In this document: positions 24,210 through 44,646 of the stretch, one piece after another
Position numbering within the stretch: position 1 is the stretch's first letter
Layout: the number at the start of each line of letters is the position of its first letter
Assembly: GCF_004354045.1 (NCBI RefSeq)
Contig: NZ_SMRT01000012.1
Location: 124,001-188,000, forward strand
From: Paenibacillus piri
GTDB lineage: Bacteria > Bacillota > Bacilli > Paenibacillales > NBRC-103111
DNA length: 64,000 nt
Direction: 5' to 3'
Position numbers and translations under genes: made by a program
The notes under the pieces: generated by a model
Database searches by the model: none
Seen by the model: only the letters and a program-made list of their open reading frames with translations
What the model was told of the DNA's origin: nothing

Positions 24210-24271
24210 GACCGGTTAGAAAAAAAGAGAGGCAGGAGGAGACACAAGAGTAGAACAGTAAGAGGGCATAG

Positions 24272-24430
24272 ATGTGGGGTGGAAAGTTTACGGGCCGTCT
24301 TTGAAGTCGTGTTCCCCCTGCCTAATCTAATCGAAGGAACACGACTTCAACAACGGCTGTAACCCTACATCCATCCCTCCCTCCCAACGCTCAAATGTAT
24401 CCTACACCAAGGATCCGGCAAGGCGGTTTT
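24272..24430. repeat. Cruciform repeat, copy 1
   Basis: This 159-base non-coding block recurs with about 90% agreement at 53537-53692. Nested arms include GATGTGGGGT/ACCCTACATC outside and GCCGTCTTTGAAGTCGTG.. paired with ..CACGACTTCAACAACGGC inside. Copy 1 has an extra CTCC in the CCATCCCTCC tail. It lies just after the terC-like gene and could serve as its transcript end. Confidence 0.85.
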
Positions 24431-24440
24431 CTATTGGCGA

Positions 24441-24473: not shown

Positions 24474-24589
24474 GTGAACTCGCTCAGCTTTGCTGAACAT
24501 CAGGGAATCAGATGGGGACTCTACCCCACCTGATTTAAGGCCCCTTAGAGGTGGGGGTCTTAACCCGATAAAGTCGTAATCGGATCAAC
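24474..24589 (+). repeat. Structured 116-base repeat, copy A
   Basis: It recurs as copy B at 31971-32088, same orientation. It folds as a CAGC/GCTG hairpin, then AATCAG-A-TGGGG paired with CCCCA-C-CTGATT, and a CCGAT/ATCGG hairpin. CCCCACCT can instead pair with AGGTGGGG downstream (8 bases), so two folds exclude each other. It begins where the promoter at 24441-24468 would start and ends 56 bases before the AraC gene. It could be a leader RNA or the end of an IS200/IS605-like element. Confidence 0.7.
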
Positions 24590-31533: not shown

Positions 31534-31715
31534 TCAAACTGGATTAGCACTCAATAGAATTCTTCCGCGACTATGACTGTCCTCGCTTCGCATGTGTGCC
31601 TCCTTTACCTCGCTCAGCGGATATACCCTGTCAATTTCCGCTTTGATTGTGCCATCCGCGAGCAGTTGCGCTACCGCTTTATTGTCATCATACGTAGGAA
31701 ACGCGGTGCTAAGTT
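31534..31715 (-). pseudogene. C-terminal remnant of a zinc-type alcohol dehydrogenase / quinone oxidoreductase
   Basis: The minus strand encodes AVAQLLADGTIKAEIDRVYP, then LSEVKEAHMRSEDSHSRGRI and a stop. This is the usual last 55 residues of a medium-chain quinone-oxidoreductase-like enzyme. The rest of the gene is missing; a GntR fragment is joined directly upstream. The piece cannot be functional. Confidence 0.75.
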
Positions 31716-31740
31716 TGGCTGTAGCTTCGAATTCGCGTCA

Positions 31741-31970
31741 GATGCTTTGATAAATTTCCTCGATATCCTGCATATTCGGCTTGTACACCGTAATCCGCAT
31801 TTTTCATCCAAAACGACCAAACCTTCTTTTTCCAAAGCCCGGATGGATTCTCTTGCCGGACTGCGACTGACCTCAAACTGTCTGGCGATTTTCGCTTCAC
31901 AGACTGTTTCCCCGCGCGCCCATGTCCCCTTAATGATCATCTGCTTAATCGAATCATACACTTGCTCGTA
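31741..31970 (-). pseudogene. GntR-family regulator remnant, truncated at both ends
   Basis: The minus strand encodes the winged helix VYDSIKQMIIKGTW, CEAKIARQFEVSRSPARESI and RALEKEGLVVLDEK. The normal continuation RITVYKPNMQDIEEIYQS is in another frame, so a shift lies near 31797-31805. The start codon is lost exactly where structured repeat B begins (31971), and the effector-binding domain is missing. Insertion of the repeat probably removed the start. Confidence 0.8.
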
Positions 31971-32088
31971 GTGAACTCGTTCAGCATTGCTGAACATCGG
32001 GGAATCACATGGGGACTCTACCCCGCCTGATTCAAGGTCCGCCATAGAGGTGGGGGTCTTAACCCGATAAAGTCGTAATCGGATAAAC
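31971..32088 (+). repeat. Structured 118-base repeat, copy B
   Basis: This is the second copy of the 24474-24589 repeat. GTTCAGC-ATT-GCTGAAC is a perfect hairpin here. GAATCA..TGGGG pairs with CCCCG..TGATTC, and CCCCGCCT can instead pair with AGGTGGGG through one G-T wobble, so both folds are kept. It interrupts a GntR gene and lies upstream of the PadR gene. No strong promoter precedes this copy. Confidence 0.7.
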
Positions 32089-32127: not shown

Positions 32128-32184
32128 TTGACAATGATGGCGCAACGACTTATTATGTATCGTATAGATATATCGAATCGACAT
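32128..32184 (+). promoter_or_regulatory. PadR promoter and possible operator
   Basis: TTGACA (32128-32133), 17 bases and TATTAT (32151-32156) form a strong promoter. ATGT (32155) and ACAT (32181) flank an AT-rich, partly symmetric core, in line with PadR-type operators of the ATGT..ACAT kind. The operator part is tentative. Confidence 0.6.
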
Positions 32185-44379: not shown

Positions 44380-44646
44380 AATTTCATATTCCAATGTTAT
44401 GATTAGAAATAGTAGAAATGAAATAACCTTTCAGAGAGCCGTTGTTGGGTGCGAAACGGCAGCGTTATCCATTTCGAACTCGTCTATGAACAGCTGCCTG
44501 AACTTGTAGGGTTAGACGGAATTCCACCGTTAAAGGGATAGATGGTGTTAGCCATCGAAGAAGATCATTTCACATTGGAAATGAATTAGAGTGGTACCGC
44601 GGGTTCAACCTCGTCTCTATACGCAGAGACGGGGTTTTTTTGTTGA
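44380..44646 (+). ncRNA. T-box riboswitch leader, probably leucine-specific
   Basis: The conserved T-box GAGTGGTACCGCGG is at 44589-44602. A stem I apical hairpin GCCGTT/AACGGC (with the AGAGAG stretch before it) and the later terminator AACCTCGTCTCT/AGAGACGGGGTT with a T-run (44607-44643) are present. The likely specifier is CTC at 44479-44481 in GAACTC, a leucine codon. Uncharged tRNA-Leu would stabilise the antiterminator and allow transcription of the isopropylmalate synthase gene. Confidence 0.93.

Follow-up and report, generated by a model that had tools for sequence, protein, structure and literature searches.

Stop-codon-sparing, gene-less mini-elements of probable IS200/IS605 type in the genome of Paenibacillus piri

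A hairpin-rich repeat seen at two places in the window, by which is meant the whole 64,000-nucleotide stretch of DNA analyzed here, was found to belong to a real and sizeable family of IS200/IS605-type mini-elements that spare stop codons, and not to be a leader RNA. The unit is about 112 nt long, too short to encode a transposase, and is probably a non-autonomous, gene-less IS200/IS605-type element similar to the palindrome-associated transposable elements (PATEs). This reading follows from a one-sided TTTAT/TTGAT target, from the lack of target site duplications (TSD) and terminal inverted repeats (TIR), and from hairpins near both ends, which are marks of IS200/IS605 elements.

Two copies of a structured repeat had been reported in an earlier note at 24474-24589 and 31971-32088, and both are present and are copies of one unit. 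Their likeness is far beyond chance: the window contains two occurrences of a 26-base stretch from the unit's 3' end, a result matched in 0 of 100 shuffles. As a "two-copy" repeat, the unit was undercounted: at least 121 copies were recovered from the window's own 8-Mb genome using a covariance model built on 20 copies, a figure that is a lower bound as 150 of 2932 first-look candidates were scored. Using BLAST over the retrieved loci, 117 copies were gathered, of which 107 are full-length and share sharp ends between unrelated flanks. Position 1 of the full-length copies is A in 105 of 107, followed by G-T-G-A-A in 106 or 107, and the opposite end is mostly GGATAAA with no conservation farther outward. 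Mean identity to the consensus is 96.9% across these 107 copies. No copy of the 117 lies inside a gene as called by a simple, unpublished codon-usage script. Exact TSDs of 5-8 bases were found in 0 of 107 full-length copies, with slight excesses over chance for shorter matches across the junctions (4 bases in two copies, 0.4 expected; 3 bases in six copies, 1.7 expected). Terminal inverted repeats are absent when the first 30 nt are compared with the reverse complement of the last 30 nt, since 485 of 1000 shuffles score equally.

The insertion site was read from the one true empty site known, which lies in the same genome. There, a copy (C57:255999) is located inside another repeat whose vacant counterpart on contig C9 reads GTGTAATCA-AATCAA-GGC, and the occupied site reads GTGTAATCA-A[GTGAACT...ATCGG]ATCAA-GGC. 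From this pair it follows that the unit (GTGAACTCG...ATCGG) of about 112 nt lies between A and ATCAA (or ATAAA) and sits in A^ATAAA or A^ATCAA without duplication. On the opposite strand the target is TTTAT^T or TTGAT^T, and the unit lies 3' of TTTAT or TTGAT. A reading in which the element starts with AGTGA at an AGTGA target was overturned by the empty site: A and AT(A/C)AA belong to the target and GTGA to the element. The variants at this end among the 107 copies are ATAAA (TTTAT) in 86, ATCAA (TTGAT) in 7, and others in 14; judging from that single empty site, they would reflect differences among targets and not changes within the unit.

In the window, the mobile unit proper of copy A occupies 24474-24583 on the minus strand, its ends being set by the 107 full-length copies, the empty site, and the alignment. 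In this IS orientation it starts CCGATTACGAC... and finishes ...GCTGAGCGAGTTCAC. Target-derived bases follow at 24584-24588 (minus strand; ATCAA on the plus strand, TTGAT on the minus strand), assigned from the ATCAA outside the insertion at the empty site of another copy and from the 3' end variants, and this is the side on which an IS200/IS605-type target lies. A target-derived A at the other junction, 24473 on the plus strand, was assigned from the aligned ends and the empty site. The unit proper of copy B was placed by alignment of copies at 31971-32082 on the minus strand, with target-derived bases at 32083-32087 (minus strand; ATAAA on the plus strand, TTTAT on the minus strand; empty site and end variants) and a target-derived A at 31970 on the plus strand (aligned ends and empty site). 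Copy A sits in a TTGAT target and copy B in a TTTAT target. Directly upstream of copy A, at 24210-24435, is an unrelated repeat of about 220 bp, which has at least 17 further copies in the same genome at 85-91% identity, with weaker copies listed for several genus mates. Copy B is overlapped on the minus strand by a short reading frame of GntR type (31671-32045; 124 aa, with a GntR domain spanning residues 26-81), which looks like a gene remnant whose first residues and start were supplied by that copy.

Many copies of the unit are placed at the very end of a gene. In 38 of the 117 copies the gene on the strand of the earlier note's reading ends exactly as xAG-TGA across the junction. An upstream frame open for at least 80 codons reaches the unit in 41 of the 107 full-length copies, and in 38 of these it is the AG-TGA frame (2 and 1 in the other frames); no such frame reaches the unit in 66 of 107, and two do so in six copies. 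Orthologues of the genes at four occupied gene-end loci were compared in genus mates, where the unit was absent from all 27 sequences. All except one of these (26 of 27) keep the same final residue, with xA(A/G) as the last codon and then TAA or TAG, and the remaining one (L168) stops one codon earlier. When the unit was removed from full-length gene-end copies, xAA-TAA was regained in 34 of 35. From the orthologue ends and the removal of the unit together, the earlier gene end xAA-TAA is the target, which the GTGA of the unit rebuilds as xAG-TGA. The changes AAA to AAG, GAA to GAG, and CAA to CAG are silent, so that the last Lys, Glu, or Gln is kept, and TAA to TGA keeps a stop. Since the last residue and the stop are both preserved, gene ends are safe landing sites. 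Placement at gene ends was also seen elsewhere, at 6 of 21 named loci and, in two f17 genomes, at 4 of 11 loci.

Gene ends were used far more often than the supply of vacant sites in the fetched loci would predict. The 38 gene-end and 79 other copies compare with 7 gene-end and 132 other vacant AATAAA sites, a ninefold over-use (p 6e-9), and the over-use is about sevenfold when vacant AATAA sites are taken (24 gene-end, 341 other). This over-use is probably due in part to selection against more harmful sites. A genome could in this way be filled with about 120 copies at little cost, with an end sequence that makes insertion into xAA-TAA a silent change of the last codon plus another stop.

Such placement also bears on whether the unit is a cis-acting RNA or terminator (a leader, an attenuator, or a 3' UTR hairpin) that is kept for regulation at gene ends and was spread by an unrelated mobile element, an explanation we hold to be improbable. 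It would account for the stable folds of both window copies, for the position of the unit at some genes between the stop codon and an apparent native terminator (read by eye), and for the avoidance of divergent promoters, where 9 of 117 copies lie compared to 67 of 252 random intergenic positions. That avoidance, however, is expected from selection alone, the neighbouring genes are unrelated, the copies share no promoter, none of 12 genus mates has a match, and the insertion ends are sharp with a defined target. The earlier note had proposed more specifically a leader RNA transcribed from a TTGGAA-16-TATAAT promoter at copy A, with the two copies lying before an AraC and a PadR gene. The promoter-like site exists (10 of 12 matches to -35/-10 positions; 0.5 such sites expected in shuffles of the region) but lies outside the unit, in the flank of copy A. 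Similar sites precede 4 of the 107 full-length copies and are found at 6 of 535 control positions. For PadR, a better promoter-like site is seen at 32128-32156, downstream of copy B, where 1.0 such sites would be expected by chance. A leader or regulatory RNA for AraC and PadR was rejected on account of the outside promoter, the position of copy B, and the unrelated neighbours, and Rfam gave no match to the unit. The result also cautions against taking every structured, covarying repeat at a gene end for regulatory RNA, since it may be mobile DNA instead.

Both window copies fold better than their shuffles (z of -2.80 and -2.90, with 1 of 200 shuffles as good in each case). In the coordinates of copy A, alignment and covariation place a terminal hairpin, stem 1, at 24482-24498 beside the CGAGTTCAC end (GCTCAGC/GCTGAAC in copy A); a central hairpin, stem 2, at 24505-24536, the least variable part; and a third hairpin, stem 3, at 24537-24561, which carries CCCCCACCTCTAA on the minus strand, a motif with some similarity to the ends of the resident IS605. 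Stem 3 of copy A is partly spoiled by a 2-base gap. Folding and alignment place a further hairpin, CCGAT/ATCGG, at 24565-24583, which is the left end in IS orientation and can pair alternatively with 24499-24504. Palindromes are found near both termini of the unit: one hairpin lies about 8 nt inward of one terminus, and another is at the opposite end. In the copy of an Alkaliphilus metagenome-assembled genome (MAG; L204 3000-3250), about 80 nt of extra sequence was seen by eye inside the third hairpin, which suggests that this loop tolerates cargo.

Covariation was assessed in an alignment of 20 copies, hand-picked from the loci at hand with truncated or very divergent rows left out. In it, the four helices together comprise 28 pairs, and 95.2% of cells are paired, a share that drops to 34-49% when the partners are slid. 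The compensatory changes that the earlier note had suggested looking for were found, with changes on both sides in 23 cells compared to 6.6 in shuffles, although these counts are inflated by related rows. Three of five measures beat all 500 shuffles; the number of pairs with a change on both sides was reached by 22 of 500 and the number of further pair types by 460 of 500. Stem 1, beside CGAGTTCAC, is the most variable part and still keeps its pairing, with four of six modelled pairs changed on both sides. Of the two near-terminal palindromes, the one about 8 nt inward is that for which compensatory changes were counted. On these sequence comparisons, the compensatory changes support the proposed hairpins. 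In stem 2, 19 of 20 rows carry a G-U pair on the minus strand, which on the plus strand is an A-C mismatch. However, 11 of these 20 rows had been picked out with an exact pattern that covers stem 2, so that its constancy and the G-U pair are partly built in; in rows outside the selection by that pattern the pair is present in eight of nine, four of the nine being from this genome. This feature fits either a DNA hairpin that is bound by protein and keeps a conserved imperfection, or a minus-strand RNA.

The earlier note had also described two exclusive folds. The CCCC(A/G)CCT arm can indeed pair as described, and there is a further alternative in which CCCGAT pairs to an ATCGGG on its upstream side, or CCGAT to an ATCGG on its downstream side. 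No evidence for a switch between folds was found. Its other suggestion, an IS200/IS605-type end (omega-RNA-like) left without its gene, came close: the empty site, the target on one side only, the hairpins just inside the ends, and the absence of both TIR and TSD fit a gene-less element of this type. The IS orientation is on the strand opposite to the one it had used.

Read on the minus strand, the unit lies 3' of TTTAT or TTGAT (the next base being T), starts CCGAT..., carries near-terminal hairpins, and ends in a hairpin followed by CGAGTTCAC. A Y1 (HUH) TnpA supplied in trans may bind these hairpins on single-stranded DNA, and the bound TnpA would then excise the unit of about 112 nt and join it 3' of a new TTTAT or TTGAT. 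Wherever the target is the reverse complement of a gene end xAA-TAA, the GTGA end of the unit rewrites it as xAG-TGA. Which TnpA moved the unit, and the present activity of the unit, are matters that we infer.

This arrangement was compared to known systems on the basis of parts of the cited papers. The PATEs, defined in Haloquadratum (PMC3119063) and with one reported in Halanaerobium (PMC7290912), are alike in having no inverted repeats, no target duplication, near-terminal palindromes, a length too short for a gene, and many copies. Unlike them, as far as those accounts go, the unit resembles the resident IS605 weakly and in part of one end only, is found in several genera without a recognisable parent, and has an end that spares stop codons. 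ISDra2 inserts 3' to TTGAT without target duplication (PMC8612924), and TTTAT and TTTAA are given for the left ends of archaeal tnpB elements (PMC10640517). With ISDra2 and other IS605 elements that carry tnpB, the unit shares insertion 3' of TTGAT/TTTAT without duplication and a right-end hairpin with a short tail (PMC8612924), whereas it has neither tnpA nor tnpB in a total of about 112 nt. The two terminal hairpins of the unit differ in sequence, unlike those of IS608 as described in PMC7290912. GTAG-tagged REP sequences are likewise palindromic and of high copy number, and their ends often give a neighbouring ORF its stop, TAG (PMC3733652, in the portion used); they are 20-40 bp long by the same source, about a third of the length of the unit, and the stop at the unit existed already and was rebuilt as TGA. 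The bcr1 repeat and other bacterial MITEs (named in PMC3733652) are also short, gene-less, and mobile, but MITEs have inverted repeats and the unit has none.

Insertion into the lagging strand has been described for IS200/IS605-type transposition (in the part of PMC8612924 used here). In 85 of 117 copies the proposed active strand of the unit is on the side of negative GC skew, contrary to the lagging-strand expectation, which would place it on the G-rich side, although selection at gene ends confounds the comparison. Orientation is partly forced by the gene-end targets, and convergent and divergent gaps give small numbers. In tandem gaps away from gene ends, copies are co-oriented or reversed in a ratio of 34 to 15, compared to 34 to 42 for vacant sites.

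Mainly because of this co-orientation with the upstream gene, which lacks an explanation, another reading is kept, in which the hairpin RNA is an orphan guide RNA (omega-RNA), the scaffold for a nuclease that acts in trans and restores lost copies. We regard this as unlikely. In a TnpB-type version the RNA would be on the minus strand, with a guide from the flank after GAGUUCAC and the motif TTTAT; in an IscB-type version it would be on the plus strand, with the host gene end as guide and the motif ATAAA on the 3' side. The layout of target, element, and guide flank would suit such an RNA, as would the G-U pair of stem 2 on the minus strand, subject to the row selection described above. The end composed of a hairpin and GAGTTCAC is like stretches after tnpB in related genomes (TAGTTCAC, TGGTTCAC), a likeness judged by eye with the limits of those stretches not fixed. 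A core is common to copies from Paenibacillus through the Alkaliphilus MAG, with compensatory changes, the relatives having been found by that core, and tnpB is present in 8 of 11 carrier genomes. At 92 of 117 copies the upstream gene runs in the same direction as the plus strand, so that read-through mRNA would carry both guide and scaffold of a plus-strand RNA. Against this, IscB (PF14239) was detected in 0 of 9 genomes, with control genomes equally silent; Rfam gave no match to the unit at gathering score in the window and none up to E 10 at the copy in four loci, HEARO included; and wobbles in the G000 copies favour neither strand (69 cells for minus, 135 for plus, 99 of the latter in outer stem 3). 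A still less probable extension would have an orphan guide-RNA transposon transcribed as the tail of the host gene's mRNA with the gene end as its guide, and a TnpB- or IscB-like nuclease in trans that cuts the emptied site and brings the copy back. If true, this would be a gene-less selfish element that uses host mRNAs as its guide-RNA promoter. The PATE-like reading is preferred. With a defined target, defined ends, and an empty site, the family offers a countable system for the upkeep of gene-less IS200/IS605 elements, in which a transposase in trans, RNA-guided nucleases, and neutral landing sites alone could be separated.

Relatives of the unit are sporadic in Bacilli and in one MAG of the Clostridia. 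The search for further copies proposed earlier yielded, beyond those of the own genome, matches in other Bacilli and none in the 12 genus mates. An order-level draw gave matches in 11 of 392 genomes and a class-level draw in 3 of 398 using the exact end pattern, a stricter test, with the own genome included in both. The carriers include Paenibacillus mesophilus, P. sp. J2TS4, P. sp. P25, P. sp. 32O-W, Bacillaceae bacterium Marseille-Q3522, Evansella caseinilytica, and Polycladospora coralii (Thermoactinomycetaceae); the clostridial carrier is the one Alkaliphilus MAG, and MAGs may be contaminated. In plasmids and phages there was no BLAST match, viral contigs did not match the exact patterns (end pattern included), and the exact 26-base pattern was not found in the genome contigs collection. 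No published description of this repeat was found in a literature search.

Copies at transposon ends, which the earlier note had envisaged, were not observed: when one TnpA and six long ORFs of tnpB loci were used as tblastn queries, neither TnpA nor TnpB turned up in 32 carrier loci (199,259 bases), and the positive control was positive. An autonomous relative with the same ends was not found via PF01797 (11 genomes), via PF07282 (11 genomes), with the R2 model over 36 tnpA/tnpB loci, or with the end pattern in viral contigs and 398 class genomes. Besides one true copy, the sole match of the R2 model over those 36 loci starts at the left end of a resident IS605 (weak, E 4.7). Aligned with the left end of the resident IS605, that of the unit shows modest similarity (equalled by 34 of 2000 shuffles, in a region chosen by eye). 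The resident IS605 copies use TTTAT at two of four left ends and TTTAA at the other two, and finish in TCAC at four right ends; as the ends differ from those of the unit, the resident IS605 was rejected as direct parent. The single full-length resident TnpA (G000) has H-V-R for H-U-H, Arg replacing the second His, whereas the TnpA of a related IS605 in G106 has H-I-H.

A Y1_Tnp match was found in five of eight carriers tested and in none of three non-carrier genus mates. The three carriers in which no Y1_Tnp match was found (G045, G102, and G109) would suit a short repeat, REP-like or of another kind, that depends on a non-Y1 transposase (a serine recombinase, for example, or an unknown HUH enzyme), as would the six copies in G102 of a tnpB element with a serine recombinase that is IS607-like by sequence reading. 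The target and ends of the unit nevertheless fit IS200/IS605 closely, and the right end of the G102 tnpB element differs, and such a mover is in our estimate quite doubtful. A genome of 3 Mb from another family (G465; L275-L294) has 12 matches to the end pattern, and at least two of the ten that were read (L282 and L292) retain only the last part of the unit. Elsewhere in the window, a T-box leader was detected at 44390-44621 with a score over the Rfam gathering score.
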